From: Nesterenkonia sp. E16_10
Lineage (GTDB): Bacteria > Actinomycetota > Actinomycetes > Actinomycetales > Micrococcaceae
Direction: 5' to 3'
Assembly (NCBI RefSeq): GCF_017347085.1
Contig: NZ_JADPSA010000002.1
Coordinates: 1 to 64,000 of the forward strand
Length of the DNA: 64,000 bases
Shown here: positions 2,701 to 50,394 of the stretch, in pieces
How positions within the stretch are numbered: the stretch's first letter is position 1
Layout of the letters: each line of letters opens with the position of its first letter
The notes under the pieces: generated by a model
Seen by the model: the letters and a program-made list of their open reading frames with translations, nothing else
Told to the model about the DNA's origin: nothing
Database searches by the model: none
Made by a program: the position numbers and the translations under genes

Positions 2701-4673
2701 GTCGACGAACCGATGCCAAGTCCTCCCGGACGATGCACCGTCGCGGGGTCATGCGCACGCTGCGCATGGTGCTGCCGCACCTGGGTGAGCACAAGCTCCT
2801 GATCACCCTCGGGCTGCTGGCCCTGATGGGCGACGTCGCGTTCCGGGTGCTCGAGCCGTGGCCGGTGAAGTTCGCCGTGGACGCCGTGTCCGAGGCGTTG
2901 GGAGCACGTGTGGAGGAGACCATCGACTCCAGCCACAACGTGGAGGGGATGATCATCTTCTGGGCGTTCGCGCTGGCGCTGATCGTCGGCGGCCGGGCGG
3001 TGTGCAACTACGTCTCGACCATCGCCTTCGCCAAGACCGGGGTCAAGGTCGCGGCGAGGCTGCGCAGCCGAGTCTTCGACCACATCCAGTCGCTGTCGCT
3101 GCGATACCACTCCAAGGCCTCCATCGGTGACACCTCCCAGCGTCTGGTCGGGGACATGGGCCGGCTCCAGGAGGTCGCCGTGACCGCGGGGCTTCCCATG
3201 ATCGGGAACCTGCTCACCCTGGTGACGCTGCTGATCGTGGTGCTCATTCTGAACCCGCTGCTCGCGCTGATCGTGCTCCTCACCGGGGCCGGATACCTGC
3301 TCTCCAGCAGGGTGCTGACTCCGAAGATCACCTCGGCCTCCCGCTCCACCCGCAAGGGTGAGGGTCAGCTGGTCGGTGATGCCGCCGAGGCGCTGGGCGC
3401 GATTCGCGTGGTGCAGTCATACGGCCTGGAGGAGACCGTGGCCTCGGGCTTCGCCGCCGGCAACGCCAAGGCGCTCAAGGCCGGGATCCGAGCCCGGAAG
3501 CTCGCCGCACGCCTGGAGCGCTCCACCGATCTGCTGGTCGGCATCGCAACCGCCGTGGTGCTGGGCTTCGGAGGCTGGCAGGTGCTCCAGGGGCTCATGA
3601 CGCCCGGGGACATGGTGCTGTTCCTGCTCTACCTGAAGATCGCGATGAAGCCGCTGCGCGATACCGCGAAGTACACCGGCAGGATCGCGCGCGCCACGGC
3701 CTCCGGCGAGCGCATCGCGGATCTTCTCGACGAGGAGATCGAGATCCAGGATCCGAAGGATCCGCTGCCACTGGGACGCGCCTCCGGGGAGCTGACCTTC
3801 TGGAACATCAGCGCGAACGACCACCGCGGCACGCCGCTGTTCGAGAAGCTGAACCTGAGCATCCCGGCGGGCCAGCGCGTGGGGCTGCTGGGGCCCTCCG
3901 GTGCCGGGAAGTCCACTCTGGCCGGGTTCCTGCTGCGCCTCGCCGATCCAGACTCCGGGTCCGTGCTGGTGGACGGGTACTCGGCGCGCAACGTCACCCG
4001 CGCCGACCTGCGGCGCAACATCGCGATCCTGCTCCAGGAGTCGGTGCTCTTCAGCACCTCGGTGCGGGAGAACATCCGGTACGGCCGGCAGGACGCCACC
4101 GACGCCGAGGTCGAGGAGGCGGCCCGACGGGCCGGCGCCCACGACTTCATCATGGCACTGCCCGAGGGGTATGAGACCGAACTCGGCAACCGCGGGGACA
4201 CGCTCTCCGGCGGCCAGCGTCAGCGCGTGGCGATCGCCCGAGCCCTGGTCCGCGACGCGCCGATCGTGCTACTCGACGAGCCCACCACGGGTCTGGATCC
4301 CGCCTCACGCGGGGTGGTGGAGAACTCGATCCGCGAACTCACCCGTGGCCGCACCACCGTGGCGATCACCCACGACCTGAGCATGATCCAGGGTCTGGAC
4401 CGGGTGCTCTGGCTCGAGGCCGGACGCATCCACGAGGACGGAACCCCGACGGAGCTGCTCGCAGACCCCAGCTCGCGGCTGGCGCAGTGGGCGAGCGCCC
4501 AGCGCAGCGCGGCAGACTCCGGGACCGGGAGTGAGAAGGCCGGGAGCGAGAGAGCCGGGGAGCAGGGGCCGACCGAGGGCGCTGCGTGGATCGAGGACCC
4601 AGGCCCGCTCGACGACCCCGTGGCCACCACGACGTCGGGGTCGGCAGACCGGGCAGAGCAGGTGAGTCGATGA
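2697..4673 (+). CDS. ABC exporter, fused membrane and ATPase domains
   Basis: A 658-residue half-transporter of the ABC exporter type. Residues about 20-310 form the transmembrane domain, with hydrophobic helices such as LLITLGLLALMGDVAF and LLTLVTLLIVVLILNPLLAL. Residues about 360-590 form the nucleotide-binding domain: Walker A GPSGAGKST near 398, signature LSGGQRQRVAIARAL, Walker B IVLLDEPTTGLDP and switch His in AITHDLSMIQ. The last 60 residues are Ser/Gly/Glu-rich and probably disordered. It would work as a dimer in the membrane. Position after two glycosyltransferases suggests export of their product, but multidrug export cannot be excluded. ATGA overlaps tie it to both neighbours. Confidence 0.9.
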   Translation: MSRRTDAKSSRTMHRRGVMRTLRMVLPHLGEHKLLITLGLLALMGDVAFRVLEPWPVKFAVDAVSEALGARVEETIDSSHNVEGMIIFWAFALALIVGGRAVCNYVSTIAFAKTGVKVAARLRSRVFDHIQSLSLRYHSKASIGDTSQRLVGDMGRLQEVAVTAGLPMIGNLLTLVTLLIVVLILNPLLALIVLLTGAGYLLSSRVLTPKITSASRSTRKGEGQLVGDAAEALGAIRVVQSYGLEETVASGFAAGNAKALKAGIRARKLAARLERSTDLLVGIATAVVLGFGGWQVLQGLMTPGDMVLFLLYLKIAMKPLRDTAKYTGRIARATASGERIADLLDEEIEIQDPKDPLPLGRASGELTFWNISANDHRGTPLFEKLNLSIPAGQRVGLLGPSGAGKSTLAGFLLRLADPDSGSVLVDGYSARNVTRADLRRNIAILLQESVLFSTSVRENIRYGRQDATDAEVEEAARRAGAHDFIMALPEGYETELGNRGDTLSGGQRQRVAIARALVRDAPIVLLDEPTTGLDPASRGVVENSIRELTRGRTTVAITHDLSMIQGLDRVLWLEAGRIHEDGTPTELLADPSSRLAQWASAQRSAADSGTGSEKAGSERAGEQGPTEGAAWIEDPGPLDDPVATTTSGSADRAEQVSR

Positions 4674-43948: not shown

Positions 43949-45007
43949 ATGAGCAGTCACTCCGGAGATCTCTACAGCGTGCTGGGCATCGGCCCCGACG
44001 CCGACGCCCAGGCCGTCCGCGCGGCCTACCGCAAGCAGGTCAGGCGGGCCCACCCCGACGCCGGCGGCACCGCGGAGGAGTTTCACGAGGTGCAGTCGGC
44101 CTGGGAGGTCCTCGGCGATGAGGCGGCCCGGGCCGCCTACGATCGGAGGCTGCGCCAGCCGCAGGGCGCCGGCGCGGAAGCCGACTCCGAGAACGAGGGG
44201 CCCACCTACGGCCGTCCCGGGTTCGGCGGCTTCGGCGGAACGGGGGCGGCATTCCGGACCACCGCCTCGGGCAGCACCTCGGCGCGCTCCGGCAGCGCCG
44301 ATTCCGCCCGTACCCCCTCGGGGACCGCCCACCTGGCCCCGATCTACATCCCTGACCTCTCCCAGCCCGAGCCGCTCTCTCTGCCGCTGACCAGTCAGCG
44401 CACGCATGGTCGCTTCGCCTCGAAGGGGCTCTTCGGCGGAGGCCGCACCCGCCGCGCCGAGCGGATGGCGGCGCTGCTGGAGAAGCACGTACTCTCCGAG
44501 CTGCCCACCGCGCGACTCTTCAACGCCGTCGCCCTGGAACCGGCGGGCAAGGACCGCCGCGGATCCAGCCGTCCCCCGCGCGGGCCGGCGGTGGATCACG
44601 TGCTGGTCTGCGGGGACACCCTGGTGGTGGTCTCCTCCTTGGAGGTGCCCGCTGCGGCTGCGTCCTGGGACGGCCGCCGGCTTCACGCCGCCGGACGCTC
44701 GCTGACCCTGCCTGACCTCACCGGAGACTCCCGGCTGCTGCGCGCCACCGTGGAGGCCGCGATGCGGGAGACCGGCCGCGAGACCAGCCTGAACCTGGGG
44801 CAGCAGCTCGTGCTGCAGTCCCCCGACGGCGGCATGCAGAGCCCGGTGGTGGAGTCCCGAGGGACCGGCATCGCGCGGGCCCCGCTGGCCCCGGCGCGTG
44901 CCTTCCGCAGCATCCGCGAGCAGCTCGCCGCCTCCGCCCAGGCCAACGTGATCGACCGGCACCTGCTTGCCGCGCTGCGCCGTCAGCTGCAGCACCCGCT
45001 GGAGTGA
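43949..45007 (+). CDS. J-domain protein with unknown C-terminal domain
   Basis: A 352-residue protein. Residues 6-65 are a J domain with LYSVLGIGPDADAQAVRAAY and the HPD motif in RRAHPDAGG. A Gly/Ser/Ala-rich linker follows (80-140). The C-terminal 200 residues (about 150-352) are globular, with DHVLVCGDTLVVVSSLEV, and are not recognised. It lacks the Gly/Phe and zinc-finger parts of full DnaJ, so it is a type III J protein that may recruit DnaK to a special client. ATG 43949 follows a possible -10 TATCGT nine bases upstream; the frame from 43907 is less likely. Confidence 0.82.
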   Translation: MSSHSGDLYSVLGIGPDADAQAVRAAYRKQVRRAHPDAGGTAEEFHEVQSAWEVLGDEAARAAYDRRLRQPQGAGAEADSENEGPTYGRPGFGGFGGTGAAFRTTASGSTSARSGSADSARTPSGTAHLAPIYIPDLSQPEPLSLPLTSQRTHGRFASKGLFGGGRTRRAERMAALLEKHVLSELPTARLFNAVALEPAGKDRRGSSRPPRGPAVDHVLVCGDTLVVVSSLEVPAAAASWDGRRLHAAGRSLTLPDLTGDSRLLRATVEAAMRETGRETSLNLGQQLVLQSPDGGMQSPVVESRGTGIARAPLAPARAFRSIREQLAASAQANVIDRHLLAALRRQLQHPLE

Positions 45008-45040
45008 CCGCTCCCTGAGCCCAGCCGGTTCCGTCGCCGG

Positions 45041-45046
45041 TAGGAT
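45041..45046 (+). promoter_or_regulatory. -10 box for leaderless trmL mRNA
   Basis: TAGGAT (TANNNT) ends seven bases before GTG 45054, so transcription probably starts at or next to the start codon. The TAGGA could also act as a weak Shine-Dalgarno site for the same GTG. Confidence 0.4.
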
Positions 45047-45053
45047 GACGGGC

Positions 45054-45527
45054 GTGAACACTCCGATTCGGGTGCTGGTGGACCAGCCTGAGATTCCCGG
45101 CAACACCGGCAACCTGATCCGGCTCGCCGCTGTCACCGGGGTGGAGCTGCATCTGGCCGAACCGATCGGCTTCGACTTCGCCGACGCCAAGCTGCGCCGT
45201 GCCGGTCTGGACTACCACGATCTCGCCGTGATGACCGTGCACCCGAGCCTGGAGGCCGCCTATGCGGCACTGGCTCCCCAGCGCATCTTCGCCTTCACCG
45301 GCGAGGGCACCGTCACCCACACCTCGATCACCTACCGCCCCGGCGATGTGCTGCTCTTCGGCCGGGAGTCCACCGGGTTGGACGAGGCGGTGAAAGCCGA
45401 TCCGCGGATCACCGATCGGGTGCGGATCCCGATGCTCGCCTCCCGGCGTTCGCTGAACCTGGCGAACTCGGTCTCGATCGCCGTCTACGAGGCCTGGCGT
45501 CAGGACGGTTTCGGCGGAGCCGTCTGA
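45054..45527 (+). CDS. trmL: tRNA (cytidine/uridine-34 2'-O)-methyltransferase, TrmL-like
   Basis: A 157-residue SPOUT methyltransferase, close to the family length. The N-terminus VLVDQPEIPGNTGNLIRLAA and the knot part LLFGRESTGLDE, followed by IPMLASRRSLNLANSVSIAVYEA, are diagnostic. It methylates the wobble ribose of Leu tRNAs with S-adenosylmethionine. I choose GTG 45054 (MNTPIRVLVDQ); ATG 45045 would add three residues. It follows the J-domain gene by 46 bp on the same strand. Confidence 0.93.
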   Translation: MNTPIRVLVDQPEIPGNTGNLIRLAAVTGVELHLAEPIGFDFADAKLRRAGLDYHDLAVMTVHPSLEAAYAALAPQRIFAFTGEGTVTHTSITYRPGDVLLFGRESTGLDEAVKADPRITDRVRIPMLASRRSLNLANSVSIAVYEAWRQDGFGGAV

Positions 45528-45571: not shown

Positions 45572-45577
45572 TACACT
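45572..45577 (+). promoter_or_regulatory. -10 box before sigma/anti-sigma fusion gene
   Basis: TACACT (TANNNT) ends eight bases before ATG 45586, and no Shine-Dalgarno site is present, so a leaderless or near-leaderless transcript is likely. Confidence 0.45.
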
Positions 45578-45585
45578 CACCAACC

Positions 45586-47238
45586 ATGGACACCGCCTCT
45601 GATCGCTCTGCATCGGCTCACCCCGAAGACCTCCCCGACGGCGACCTGACCCGCGCAGAACAGGGCCGCGGGTCCGTCCATGAGACCACCGGGAACGACG
45701 ACGCCGACGGCCGGCCCGACTCCGCCGAGGCCTCGAACGATCCGAGGCTGAGCGAGCTCCTCGCGGGTTCGGCCCGCGGCGACCAGCCCTCCTTCGCCAC
45801 CTTCTACGAGGCCACCTCCGATGTGGTCTACGGGCTGGCGCTGCTGATGCACGAAGATCCCGAGGGGGCGCAGGCCTCCATGTTGGCGGTCTACCACCAG
45901 CTCTGGGACCAGGCCGACGAGCGCGCCCAAGACCTCCGGCTGCAGTCCCAGGCCTCGGAGCTGCTCACCGACGAGCACGCCGCCGAGGAGCATCGCCCCG
46001 ACGACGCCTACCGGCCCACCGAGTACGAGCTGGTGCTGGAATGGCTGGTCCCGCTGGCGCACCGGATCTTCGTGGAGCGCTTCCGCGAGGGCCTGGCCAC
46101 ACCGATCCGCCTCACCGTGGTCCCGGCCGATGAAGGGGGCGGGATCGCCGGTCTTCCCGAAGAGATCATCGAGGACATCAGCGTGCTCTCGGACTCGCAG
46201 TCCCAGGCGCTGGCGCTGAGCTACCTCGCCGGCGACACCCACCAGCAGGTGGGCGCCGCGGTGGGCGCAGCCGTTCCGGCCGTGAAGTCTCGACTGCGTG
46301 ACGGCATGACCCGGATGCACACCAGGCGCACCACCCGCGAGGCGGAGCTCGATCCGATCCTGCGGGCCGCGGTGACGAAGAAGGACGTGGAACGTTCCGG
46401 CGCGGTGAACCGGAACTTCACCGAGGACATCGGCGCCGACGTCGAACACGGACTGCTCGTGGAGCTCGCCGAGGTCTACGCGCTGGACGCCATCGACAAC
46501 CGGGAACGCGCCGTGCTGGATGAGGCGGTCCTGACCGCCGATGAGGCCACCGCGCGCGCCTGGGACACCCGGGTGCTCTCGGCCCGGCGCACGCTCTCCG
46601 AGATCTTCACCGCCTACCCGGTGGTCCCGCCGGGCCAGCTGCTCGAGGAGGTGCTCTACAACCTCTCCGACCAGGAGGTCGGCATGGGAATGGTGGAGTC
46701 CATCTCGAGCCACACCGAGGTGACGCCCAAACGGGAACCGGTGGTGAAGCGCTGGATGATCGTCAGCGGCCTCGCTGTCGTCGTGCTGGCCGCGGTCCTG
46801 CTGATCTGGGGACTGACCATCGGCCAGGACGTGCAGGCCACGGCCGACGGGGACCCCGAGGCGCGGGTGGTCGACGGCATCGAGCTCGCCGAGGGCGGCA
46901 CCGCACGGGCGGTGATCTCCGAGGCCGAGAATGTGGGCTACGTGGACTTCTCCGAGGTCGGGGAGCTCGAGGGCGAGACCACCTACCAGCTGTGGCTGAT
47001 GCCGCGCGACGACGCCCAGCCCAGTTCGCTGGGAAACTTCACCGCCGCGGAGCTCGAGGAGGAGATCGTGACCCTGCGCGATGTCGAGTCGAACCGGGCG
47101 CTGCAGATCACGGTCGAGCAGATCCGCGGCGAGGAGCGCCCGATGGGCGAGACGGTCGGCGAGATCGAGATGCGTGAACGAGTCACCGACGGCCCGCAAT
47201 ACGGCGGGTCCACCGATCAGGAGGAGGACGAGGACTGA
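45586..47238 (+). CDS. ECF sigma-like and anti-sigma (RskA-like) fusion, membrane-bound
   Basis: A 550-residue protein with an unusual layout. After an acidic N-terminus (1-55) comes a sigma-2-like region (about 61-110, DQPSFATFYEATSDVVYGLALLMHE), then a sigma-4-like region (about 195-245, LSDSQSQALALSYLAGDTHQQVG and VKSRLRDGMTRM). A region like the RskA cytosolic domain follows (about 285-360, ELAEVYALDAIDNRERAVLDEA) without its Cys/His motif, then one helix (390-412) and an RskA-type extracytoplasmic domain with TTYQLWLMPRDDAQPSSLGNF. So sigma-like and anti-sigma parts are in one chain. The sigma parts look degenerate. It overlaps rraA by one base. Confidence 0.75.
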   Translation: MDTASDRSASAHPEDLPDGDLTRAEQGRGSVHETTGNDDADGRPDSAEASNDPRLSELLAGSARGDQPSFATFYEATSDVVYGLALLMHEDPEGAQASMLAVYHQLWDQADERAQDLRLQSQASELLTDEHAAEEHRPDDAYRPTEYELVLEWLVPLAHRIFVERFREGLATPIRLTVVPADEGGGIAGLPEEIIEDISVLSDSQSQALALSYLAGDTHQQVGAAVGAAVPAVKSRLRDGMTRMHTRRTTREAELDPILRAAVTKKDVERSGAVNRNFTEDIGADVEHGLLVELAEVYALDAIDNRERAVLDEAVLTADEATARAWDTRVLSARRTLSEIFTAYPVVPPGQLLEEVLYNLSDQEVGMGMVESISSHTEVTPKREPVVKRWMIVSGLAVVVLAAVLLIWGLTIGQDVQATADGDPEARVVDGIELAEGGTARAVISEAENVGYVDFSEVGELEGETTYQLWLMPRDDAQPSSLGNFTAAELEEEIVTLRDVESNRALQITVEQIRGEERPMGETVGEIEMRERVTDGPQYGGSTDQEEDED

Positions 47239-47738
47239 TGAGCGCAGAACCCAGGCCCACCACCGGCAGCGCTGACTTCGCGACCTGCGACCTCTACGAC
47301 GACGACGAGTCGCTGCAGTCGCTCTCGCTGCAGCTGCTGAACCTCGGCGGCCGCGCCCGATTCACCGGCCCGATCCGGACCATCCGCTGTCACCGGGACA
47401 ACGGACTGGTCAAAGAGCTGCTGAACTCCCCCGGTGATGGCGCCGTGCTCGTCGTCGACGGCTCAGGCTCGCTGGACTCGGCCCTGATCGGTGACATGAT
47501 CGCCGCCTCCGCGATCGAGAACGGCTGGGCCGGGGTGGTCATCCACGGGGCGATCCGTGACCGTGAGCAGCTCGCCGAGATGGACCTCGGTGTGCGCGCA
47601 CTGGGCTCGAATCCCCGGAAGTCGGTCAAGGACGGAGTCGGCGAGGTCGATGTGCCGGTCCAGTTCGGCGGCGTGAGCTTCGTGCCCGGGGCGACCCTGT
47701 GGTCCGACGCCGACGGCGTGCTCGTCAGCAACGTCTGA
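47238..47738 (+). CDS. rraA: RraA-family protein
   Basis: A 166-residue protein of the RraA fold: ATCDLYDDDESLQSL at the N-terminus, VLVVDGSGSLDSALIGDMIAA in the middle and GVVIHGAIRDREQLAEMDLGVRALG, which holds the usual RD pair. Members either inhibit RNase E or act as 4-hydroxy-4-methyl-2-oxoglutarate/oxaloacetate decarboxylating aldolases; in actinobacteria the function is unsettled. The start ATG shares one base with the previous stop (TGATG). Its 3' end is followed by a 16-bp tandem repeat. Confidence 0.92.
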   Translation: MSAEPRPTTGSADFATCDLYDDDESLQSLSLQLLNLGGRARFTGPIRTIRCHRDNGLVKELLNSPGDGAVLVVDGSGSLDSALIGDMIAASAIENGWAGVVIHGAIRDREQLAEMDLGVRALGSNPRKSVKDGVGEVDVPVQFGGVSFVPGATLWSDADGVLVSNV

Positions 47739-47819: not shown

Positions 47820-48656
47820 TCAGAACCCGCTGATCGTGTCCGGGGCGTTGACCGTGACCCAGTGGAACTCCTCGGCGAAGCCGCCGGCACCGTGGATCTC
47901 GCGCATCTGCTCCAGCACGAAGTTCTCCATCCGCGCGGCGTCGGGGTGCTGGCTGAAGTGGGCCCGCAGCGCGTCCAGCTTCACCGACTCCTGTCCCGAG
48001 ACGTCGAGCCGGAGGTTCACCCGCTCCTGCGGCGCGGTGGTCAGCAGCAGGTGACGGATCTTGAAGGCCTCCAGCCCCGCGGCCGCGAGCTCCGGGTAGG
48101 CGAAGGGGTTCTCCACGTAGGGGTAGGCGGCACGGACCACGGCCTCGCCGCAGGCCAGGTGATCGGGGTGTGACTTCTGCAGCCGGTCCCAGGCGCGTTC
48201 GGGATGCGGAGAGATGACCACCTCGGGCCGGACCTGACGCATGATCCGCACGATCTTTCCGACCAGCTCCGCGGTGGGCGCGACGAAGCCGTCGCGCTCG
48301 TCGAGCAGGATCACCTCGTGGACCCCCAGCGCCGCGGCCGCCTGACGCTGCTCGGCCTCCCGCACCCGGGCCAGCTCGGCCCCGTCGCGCCCGGGCTCGA
48401 AGCCCCCGGCGTCACCGGCGGTGAGCAGGCACAGGGTCACCTGCACCCCGGCCGCGGTGAACGCCGCGATGCTGCCGGCCGCGCCGAAGTCGATGTCATC
48501 GGGATGGGCCCCGAAGGCGAGCACCTGGCGGACCTCGTGCTCCGCCGCCAGCGCGGCGGGGCTGGTCAGCCCGGCCCGGCTGGAGGATCCGGGGGCTGCC
48601 GACATCGCGGTCCGCGAAGAACCGGCTGGGAACGACTCAGACTCAGGTCGCGCCAA
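47820..48656 (-). CDS. PIG-L/LmbE-family deacetylase
   Basis: A 278-residue zinc-dependent deacetylase-like protein. The metal site is in GAHPDDIDFGAAGS near 52 and in RLQKSHPDHLACGEAV near 170. Family members deacetylate N-acetylglucosamine derivatives (mycothiol MshB, Mca or glycolipid precursors). TTG 48656 has GAGG six bases upstream and overlaps the protease stop by 14 bases, suggesting coupling; the next candidate ATG (48605) has no ribosome site. The first 40 residues are not conserved in type. The length is near that of MshB-like enzymes, but the exact substrate is unknown. Confidence 0.85.
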   Translation of the reverse strand: MARPESESFPAGSSRTAMSAAPGSSSRAGLTSPAALAAEHEVRQVLAFGAHPDDIDFGAAGSIAAFTAAGVQVTLCLLTAGDAGGFEPGRDGAELARVREAEQRQAAAALGVHEVILLDERDGFVAPTAELVGKIVRIMRQVRPEVVISPHPERAWDRLQKSHPDHLACGEAVVRAAYPYVENPFAYPELAAAGLEAFKIRHLLLTTAPQERVNLRLDVSGQESVKLDALRAHFSQHPDAARMENFVLEQMREIHGAGGFAEEFHWVTVNAPDTISGF

Positions 48657-50394
48657 GGGTCACCTCGGTCTCTTCCTGCTGGCCGTCCCGCGTGTAGCTG
48701 ATCGTCACGGTCTCTCCGGCCGCGTACTCGCGGATCGTGGCGGTCAGCGCCAGCGAGTCTTCGATCCGCCGGTCGTTGACCGCGGTGATGATGTCACCGG
48801 TGGCGAGTCCCGCTTCCGCGGCCGGGGTGTTTCCCGGCACGTCATCGATCAGCGCGCCCACGGTGAAGCCGGGCATCACCGGAGCAAGCCCGGTATCGGT
48901 CTCGTCCGGAACCTCCTGGGAGCCGGCAGCCGCGACCGTGACGCCGAGCAGCCCGTGCGAGACCTCACCGGTCTCGATGAGCTCCTGCGCGACCCGCTGG
49001 GCATAGTCGATCGGCACCGCGAAGCCCACACCGATGGACCCGGCGTCGGACTCGGCCCCTCCCCCGGATGAGGCGATGGCCACGTTGACGCCGATCACCC
49101 GGCCCTCATCATCGACGAGGGCGCCGCCGGAGTTGCCACGGTTGATCGCGGCGTCGGTCTGGATCACGTTGAGATGAATCGAACCCTGGGTCGGGGATCC
49201 CTCCATGTCAGGGAAGTAGAACTCGAAGCCGTCCTCTTCGGCGCCCTCCTCGGGCGCCTCCGGGGCGTCGCCGCCCTCGTCCTCCACGGCGGAGGAGGCG
49301 ACGGAGATGGTGCGGTTCAGCGTGGAGACGATCCCGTCGGTGACCGTGCCGGCGAGGCCGAGCGGGGCACCGATGGCGATGCTCTGGTCCCCGACGTTGA
49401 GATCCCCGGAGGAGCCAAGCTCGGCCGGCTGGATCCCCTCGATGTCCTCGAGCTGGATCACCGCGAGATCACTCAGCGGGTCGGTGCCGACCAGGGTGGC
49501 GTCGGAGACCGATCCGTCGCTCATCCGGACCTGGATCTCGGGATCCGGCGCGGCCCCGCCGAGGGTGACCACGTGCGTGTTGGTCAGCACGTGGCCTTCC
49601 TCATCCAGGATGATTCCTGAGCCGGACCCGCCCTGGCCACCTTCGTTGACTGCCAGGGTGACCACCGAGGGAGAGGCCTTCGCCGCTGCGGCGGTGACCA
49701 CGGTGGCGGAGTCGGGGTTGTTGATCTCGATGCCTCCGGTGGAGGAGGTGCTGATGCTGCCGTCGTCGAGCACCGCCTGGGTGCCGGCCACCACACCGCC
49801 GCCGAGCAGGCCGGCGAGCAGCACCGCGAGCGCGAGACCGCCGACGCCCACGGTGCGCTTGGCCCGCGGCTGCTTCTGATCGGGGTGCCCGAAGGCGGCA
49901 CCCGAGCCGTACCCGCCGTAGGCGCCATAGCCCTCACCGCCATGGGAGGGGTCCTGATGGTGCTGCGGCTGGCCGTACTGGCCCTGCTGATCCTGGCCGT
50001 ACTGGCCGGTCTGCGGATGGCCGTACTGATCCTGACGGTACTGGGCGGCCTGCGGCTGACCGTACTGATCCTGGCCGTACTGATCCTGACCGTACTGGCC
50101 CTGGCCGTACTGGCCGTACTGGCCGGCCTGGTGCTGACCGTACTGCGGCTGGTGCTGTCCCTGACCTGGCTCGCCAGAGGCATAGCCGCCCTGCTCTGCG
50201 GTGTGATGCTGGGAGGCGGGGGTCCCTGAGGGCGAGGCGGGCCAGTCGGCGGAGTAGGACTCCACCCCGGACTGGGCCGGGGCATCAGCCTCGGGAGAGA
50301 CCGGTCCCGGCGGCACGGGATCGATCCGCGCTGTGGCGTCCTCCGGAGGGTCGACGTCGTCCCGGCGAGGGCCGTTGTGCGGATCTGGACTCAT
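48643..50394 (-). CDS. HtrA-like membrane serine protease with PDZ domain
   Basis: A 583-residue protein. The cytosolic N-terminus (1-178) is low complexity with YGQ-rich repeats at about 80-148. One helix (about 183-204) leads to an extracellular trypsin-like domain with His274 in LTNTHVVT, Asp309 in PLSDLAVIQLED and Ser422 in NRGNSGGALVD. A PDZ domain follows (about 480-580, TVGALIDDVPGNTPAAEAGL). An acidic insert lies at 366-402 in the protease domain. It likely degrades misfolded envelope proteins, and in mycobacteria relatives work with envelope-stress systems. It is translated with the deacetylase gene downstream. Confidence 0.94.
   Translation of the reverse strand: MSPDPHNGPRRDDVDPPEDATARIDPVPPGPVSPEADAPAQSGVESYSADWPASPSGTPASQHHTAEQGGYASGEPGQGQHQPQYGQHQAGQYGQYGQGQYGQDQYGQDQYGQPQAAQYRQDQYGHPQTGQYGQDQQGQYGQPQHHQDPSHGGEGYGAYGGYGSGAAFGHPDQKQPRAKRTVGVGGLALAVLLAGLLGGGVVAGTQAVLDDGSISTSSTGGIEINNPDSATVVTAAAAKASPSVVTLAVNEGGQGGSGSGIILDEEGHVLTNTHVVTLGGAAPDPEIQVRMSDGSVSDATLVGTDPLSDLAVIQLEDIEGIQPAELGSSGDLNVGDQSIAIGAPLGLAGTVTDGIVSTLNRTISVASSAVEDEGGDAPEAPEEGAEEDGFEFYFPDMEGSPTQGSIHLNVIQTDAAINRGNSGGALVDDEGRVIGVNVAIASSGGGAESDAGSIGVGFAVPIDYAQRVAQELIETGEVSHGLLGVTVAAAGSQEVPDETDTGLAPVMPGFTVGALIDDVPGNTPAAEAGLATGDIITAVNDRRIEDSLALTATIREYAAGETVTISYTRDGQQEETEVTLGAT
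49951..50157 (-). repeat. YGQ-rich coding repeat of the protease N-terminus
   Basis: Codons for QYGQ/DQYGQ units recur about a dozen times with short periods, giving a tyrosine/glutamine/glycine-rich cytosolic tail of about 70 residues. On the plus strand this appears as repeated GTACTG. Confidence 0.8.

Follow-up and report, generated by a model that had tools for sequence, protein, structure and literature searches.

The stretch of DNA analysed here (64,000 nucleotides from Nesterenkonia sp. E16_10, hereafter the window) contains an uninterrupted open frame, from ATG to TGA, whose 550-aa product carries SigK-like sigma2 and sigma4 regions, an RskA anti-sigma domain, a membrane helix and an RskA outer domain, in this order (Table 1). 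The Pfam matches to Sigma70_r2, Sigma70_r4 and RskA that a preliminary description of the gene had led us to look for were found in part. Both RskA domains scored over their cut-offs, RskA_C with 54.8 bits (cut-off 29.4; E = 1.5e-14, residues 398-520) and RskA_N with 38.8 bits (cut-off 27; E = 1e-9, residues 291-337), Sigma70_r4 fell just under its own (22.9 versus 24.1 bits; E = 6.2e-5, residues 199-244), and Sigma70_r2 gave no match to the protein; nor was the gene among the 13 places that Sigma70_r2 marked at E ≤ 0.001 in a scan of the genome. In NCBIfam, the SigK model PRK09646 matched in three stretches (1.6e-22; 80.1 bits, below the cut-off of 226) and the anti-sigma model NF052375 matched residues 295-519 (5.8e-21; 75.5 bits, below the cut-off of 100). 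The two chains of the Mycobacterium tuberculosis SigK-RskA complex matched the two halves in order, SigK (4nqw_A, 5.6e-11) in one sigma2 and one sigma4 stretch and RskA (4nqw_B) at 6.7e-5. Thus, the sigma2 part is recognised by comparison with whole SigK and not by the generic domain model, and the SigK matches bear out the sigma identity first assigned to residues 55-250. A single hydrophobic segment lies at about residues 388-412, as one does in each of 48 fused relatives, so that frame, matches and segment together confirm that sigma and anti-sigma parts are joined in one membrane protein. The missing Cys/His motif noted earlier is indeed missing (the protein has no Cys at all), but domains of the RskA type do not depend on it (PMC7406223).

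Table 1. The fused gene, its parts and its conserved neighbours in the window.
Feature	Coordinates	Strand	Basis or remark
trmH-like RNA methyltransferase gene, conserved upstream neighbour	44967..45527	+	product name read from sequence
TACACT, -10-like hexamer, 8 bases before ATG	45572..45577	+	housekeeping type; putatively leaderless message
SigK-RskA fusion protein, 550 aa	45586..47238	+	Pfam, NCBIfam and PDB-sequence matches
Variable N-terminal extension, residues 1-52	45586..45741	+	dN/dS 0.57; mean pairwise identity 0.25 within genus
sigma2.1-2.2-like part, residues 53-111	45742..45918	+	clamp pair QE replaced by L100 A101
Insertion of ~20-30 residues at site of sigma2 promoter-opening loop, residues 112-146	45919..46023	+	alignment
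sigma2.4 equivalent, residues 147-168	46024..46089	+	HRRAVD of SigK is HRIFVE here
sigma4-like part, residues 195-246	46168..46323	+	recognition helix K234 S235 R236 R238 kept
Fusion linker, residues 247-287	46324..46446	+	last part aligns with start of separate RskA proteins
RskA_N class I anti-sigma domain, residues 288-360	46447..46665	+	Pfam, PDB sequence, alignment
Juxtamembrane stretch, residues 361-387	46666..46746	+	Q-[DEN]-V-G motif special to fused proteins
Single membrane helix, residues 388-412	46747..46821	+	hydrophobic segment
RskA_C outer domain, residues 413-530	46822..47175	+	Pfam
PIG-L-type deacetylase gene, conserved downstream neighbour	47820..48656	-	product name read from sequence
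HtrA-type protease gene, conserved downstream neighbour	48643..50394	-	product name read from sequence

The upstream neighbour is trmH and, in agreement with the preliminary description, no separate sigma gene precedes the fusion. The order dnaJ-like gene, trmH, fused gene, PIG-L deacetylase, HtrA protease is a recurring one: trmH, pigL and htrA were present in all 19 long fused loci from other groups (L089-L107) and, within the fetched flank of the loci with separate (split) sigK and rskA, trmH was found in 16/20 and pigL in 10/20, with an extra ORF between trmH and sigK in several. In the window, an rraA-like gene (47238-47738) starts on the last base of the fusion stop codon (TGATG); such a gene adjoins the fusion in only some Nesterenkonia loci (6/15; L030-L044). 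In the HtrA-like protease of the window, the membrane helix is preceded by a long N-terminal stretch of low complexity, of QYGQ type.

Analysis of the distribution of the fused protein showed a full-length frame, 55-100% identical, in 30/30 Nesterenkonia genomes searched, which makes unlikely the frame error joining two genes that had earlier been considered; in G025 and G010, the match includes a single stop codon, at or near the C-terminal end by ORF coordinates. In the family Micrococcaceae, 111 of 149 genomes matched the query at E ≤ 1e-5, and long matches across both halves came from six genus groups (g1, g2, g4, g14, g16 and g21) with, by count, 31 fused genomes. This number includes G162 (g14), where a 348-aa ORF at the same locus (L108, 4965-6011) matches the sigma part only; the copy may be broken or truncated, since its RskA part gave no match. 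Groups g5, g10, g18, g25, g26, g28 and g31 have separate sigK and rskA, spaced by 1-2 bases in 17/20 loci and overlapping in the other three (by first start codons). Judged by gene order, these separate genes, mostly at the same trmH locus, are the direct positional orthologues of the fused gene. As separate genes are the usual state, the fusion would be the derived one. A tree built from the trmH, pigL and htrA sequences of 47 loci (a quick search with arbitrary root, seven loci being dropped for lack of neighbours) grouped the 34 fused rows together, set apart by a single branch with full SH-aLRT support, so that a single fusion event is the simplest explanation.

A search for fusions in 297 genomes at the order level gave two genomes with a match at E ≤ 1e-22, both of them Nesterenkonia. 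At the class level, an 11-row profile matched 113 of 394 genomes at E ≤ 1e-25 (three candidates scored in each), and, besides those of two Nesterenkonia, the only match that spanned both halves, in G522, was rejected because it crosses a stop and represents two genes in one frame. That locus (L123), from another order, has sigK and rskA in the same frame with one TGA between them, i.e. it is one stop codon from a fusion. Sigma-only matches in open frames of 469-849 codons (G301, G314, G421, G570, G574, G586 and G756) may represent further sigma fusions or simply GC-rich frames that happen to be open. No SigK-RskA fusion was found in the viral contigs searched.

Residues were counted in three sets of sequences. 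The fused set (n = 48) comprised proteins from 29 of the 30 Nesterenkonia genomes, eight from g4, one each from g2 and g16, five from g14 and four of seven from g21, and omitted the near-copy L016, G132 (g14) and G162. The split set consisted of 20 loci from seven groups, and the control set of 13 separate SigK-like paralogues, one per fetched locus (13 loci), from 12 fused genomes.

The QE/QD pair of sigma2.2, which we take to be the named beta' clamp contacts, is present in 20/20 split SigK proteins and 13/13 paralogues and in none of the 48 fused proteins. The latter mostly have hydrophobic residues at these sites, 39/48 at position 100 (Val, Leu, Ile or Ala) and 38/48 at position 101; position 97, occupied by D or E in the paralogues too, is still acidic in 19/48. 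In the HRRAxD motif of sigma2.4, which belongs to -10 recognition, the first Arg is kept in 33/48 fused proteins, the second Arg of HRR (20/20 split, 13/13 paralogues) in none, and the Asp of RAxD (likewise 20/20 and 13/13) in a single one. The Cys pair of SigK, found in all 20 split proteins, is absent at either position from all 48 fused ones. This pair is not universal, being present in 56% of ECF19, and its loss is described as accompanying altered RskA (PMC7509140). The sigma2.2 region is the one that binds the beta' clamp (PMC7406223). Having lost the polymerase-binding pair and the -10 residues, the fused protein has probably ceased to be a sigma factor.

Such losses bear on the first of two readings offered in the preliminary description, a tethered sigma factor released by proteolysis, the second being a degenerate sigma part that acts as a scaffold. 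According to the first, the protein would be a working membrane-tethered sigma factor whose cytoplasmic part, freed by site-1 and site-2 cleavage, would use a changed polymerase interface at new promoters, in the manner of IutY. Its fold and -35 helix residues are kept, its sigma domains are under purifying selection (see below), and fused, proteolysis-activated sigma factors, IutY among them, do exist (PMC8999054). RskA is reported to activate as well as inhibit SigK (PMC7509140), so that a SigK-RskA fusion would be tolerable and SigK would not need to be separated from RskA. M50 peptidases are encoded in the window genome, although they are also found in all 14 control genomes. Against this reading stand the clamp pair and the second Arg of HRR, both absent from all 48 fused proteins, the insertion in the promoter-opening loop, and the promoter and regulon data given below.

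Over the positions conserved in split SigK, retention in the fused proteins is 0.47 for sigma2, 0.51 for sigma4 and 0.71 for RskA_N. The first two values rule out that sigma4 is better kept than sigma2 overall; only its recognition-helix residues stand out and, with both regions retained alike, the loss of sigma features appears to be a matter of particular residues. In the -35 recognition helix, P231, K234, S235 and R236 are kept in 43/48 fused proteins and R238 in 48/48, the window protein having KSR.R. Thus, the promoter-contact residues of this helix, to which the preliminary description had drawn attention, are kept in most members of the set but mostly lost in the five g14 proteins (L099, L100, L105, L106 and L107), with R236 changed to L and K234 to R. 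Given this additional loss in g14, the sigma part may not serve the same role in every fused protein. The kept helix could also point to a membrane-bound DNA-binding regulator, in which the sigma4 helix-turn-helix would bind a CCATCC-type -35-like site and repress or help other promoters, with no sigma activity of its own. We regard such a regulator as quite unlikely: all five g14 proteins studied persist without the helix, a search beside the fused gene revealed no target site, and the residues may be kept for contact with RskA, since helix 1 of RskA normally covers the -35-reading face of sigma4 (PMC7406223).

The state of the face that binds the anti-sigma domain was assessed at positions known from four solved complexes to contact anti-sigma factors (PMC7406223, Table 2). 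F70, G83 and W107 are identical and Y74 and Y103 aromatic in 48/48 fused proteins; positions 79, 96, 100, 194 and 214 are changed or variable. F70, Y74 and W107 are kept by the control paralogues as well, and these three may in part be plain core residues and not anti-sigma contacts. The positions that match the contact between SigK L177 and RskA L18, 241 and 300 by a PDB-sequence alignment and an assumed tag offset, are hydrophobic in 45/48 (M, V, L, C or A) and 47/48 fused proteins, respectively. After anti-sigma helix 4, the fused proteins carry a Q-[DEN]-V-G motif (G366 in 47/48, Q363 in 43/48) that split RskA does not have in this form.

Upstream of split sigK (e.g. in L085, L080 and L079), the sequence CCATCC-N15-CCGAAT, presumably the mycobacterial SigK consensus, occurs with at most one mismatch in 17/20 cases (shuffles, 17/1360). 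It precedes none of the 48 fused genes at this stringency and six of them with two mismatches; in a wider window and with a slightly looser pattern, the counts were 18/20 for split and 0/48 for fused genes. Across the 149 family genomes, 67 have the strict form and two have the reversed control pattern. In 12 family genomes the promoter sequence lies upstream of a fasciclin-domain gene, so marking a small Micrococcaceae regulon of sigK-rskA and a fasciclin gene that resembles mycobacterial mpt70/mpt83, the fasciclin-type genes controlled by SigK (PMC7509140). Among the 31 fused genomes, the fasciclin gene is found in 10 of the 12 that have a strong separate SigK (E ≤ 1e-40) and in none of the 19 that do not (Fisher test, 1.5e-6, with related genomes counted as independent); some fused genomes, such as G042, contain weaker SigK-like genes below this cut-off. 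As the fasciclin gene occurs only where a strong separate SigK exists, the fused protein does not appear to replace SigK. The window genome (G000) has a second, separate pair of its own (L109, C48:101967-109494), sigK at 2833-3537 and rskA at 3534-4394, with a 4-base overlap; a fasciclin-domain gene (C48:104334-104699) lies just before the pair, and this SigK keeps the clamp pair.

A TAnnCT element lies before the in-frame start in 43/48 fused genes, 18/20 split genes and 36/960 shuffles. Its presence in the split genes rules out that it arose as a new housekeeping -10 element replacing the SigK box. The element being common to both kinds of gene, the fused genes have lost one of two ancestral signals. 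On the evidence of the residues and of the regulon alike, release of a tethered, working sigma factor by proteolysis is thus unlikely.

Estimates of dN/dS, obtained by simple counting and pooled over 17 close pairs (silent sites being saturated in some g21 pairs), were 0.12 for sigma2.1-2.2, 0.05 for the sigma2.4 equivalent, 0.10 for sigma4, 0.08 for RskA_N, 0.15 for RskA_C and 0.24 for the insertion, and reached 0.57 in the N-terminal 52 residues. By this measure, purifying selection acts on the sigma domains as it does on the RskA domain, and the sigma half is not decaying. This makes it very improbable that only the outer RskA_C domain and its anchor matter and that the sigma part is a passive spacer, as the lost sigma functions and the fast evolution of the N-terminus might suggest: the rates of sigma2 and sigma4 are as low as that of RskA_N and lower than that of RskA_C. 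The scaffold of the preliminary description is the better supported of its two readings, with the qualification that the sigma part has not undergone random decay; moreover, K234, S235 and R236 are kept more widely than a mere scaffold would need.

We therefore think it rather probable that a former sigK-rskA operon was fused into one gene whose product became a membrane sensor scaffold with a pseudo-sigma part, and not a tethered sigma factor. The fusion would have taken place in the ancestor of one Micrococcaceae branch, where the pseudo-sigma would have retained its fold and, for the most part, its anti-sigma-binding face while losing the residues for RNA-polymerase clamp contact and -10 reading. 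The predicted topology has the N-terminus inside, one helix and the RskA_C domain outside. In the cytoplasm, sigma2 and sigma4 would clasp RskA_N of the same chain, so that there would be no exchange with RNA polymerase. The outer domain may sense an envelope signal, which the membrane helix would relay, probably by way of site-2 cleavage as in RskA, to a cytoplasmic module other than a promoter-selecting sigma subunit. Both halves have probably been kept by evolution as such a membrane sensor. A conceivable, if doubtful, version of this scaffold is sigma mimicry in cis, in which the membrane anti-sigma factor would carry its own decoy: the pseudo-sigma would plug the RskA domain until an outer-domain signal or cleavage opened the clasp, and the exposed RskA would then sequester or assist a different sigma factor, which in many strains would be the separate SigK. 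Because a strong separate SigK is missing from 19 of the 31 fused genomes, those strains would need another partner. If true, this would be a case of an on/off sigma pair having become a sensor whose targets are sigma factors in trans.

PhyR of Alphaproteobacteria, a soluble response regulator, works in trans, whereas the fused protein has no match to the Pfam receiver domain up to E = 10 and its mimic would act in cis. The fused protein would resemble PhyR if its pseudo-sigma serves, as the sigma-like domain of PhyR does (PMC5830050), to engage an anti-sigma factor and not promoters. With SigK-RskA (ECF18/19 with AS19-1 anti-sigma; M. tuberculosis, PDB 4nqw) the fused protein shares the domain order and homology of both halves, and differs in being one polypeptide and in the loss of the clamp pair, the -10 residues, the Cys pair and the SigK-type promoter. 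IutY of Pseudomonas putida (ECF243) likewise joins a sigma factor to a membrane anti-sigma factor in one chain (PMC8999054); by its description, as distinct from its sequence, it becomes an active iron-starvation sigma once cleaved, whereas the sigma half of the protein studied here has no clamp pair. ECF48, ECF52 (SCO4117) and ECF53 of Actinobacteria also have a C-terminal anti-sigma-like membrane part, described as a zinc-finger anti-sigma (PMC8999054), in contrast to the RskA type found here, with its RskA_N match and no Cys. Neither an RskA-type fusion nor one with a disabled sigma factor is described in the passages on fused ECF sigma factors in that source. Searches of open-licence papers turned up no title or opening of an abstract that describes a SigK-RskA fusion, although the 2021 ECF re-classification may mention one.

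Fused sigma/anti-sigma proteins as such are thus already known, and those known are sigma factors awaiting release; what appears to be new here is a sigma half that has ceased to resemble a functional sigma factor. The fused proteins are also a trap for annotation, scoring both as SigK and as an anti-sigma factor. The hallmarks of sigma activity appear to have been lost from the fused pair a single time, in an ancestor, and selection to have maintained the pair ever since in all Nesterenkonia genomes searched. The family offers a natural series, from the separate pair through the fused pseudo-sigma to a fused pseudo-sigma that is also without the sigma4 helix, which lets one ask about the anti-sigma role apart from transcription and about whether sigma domains can be co-opted simply as partners for binding.
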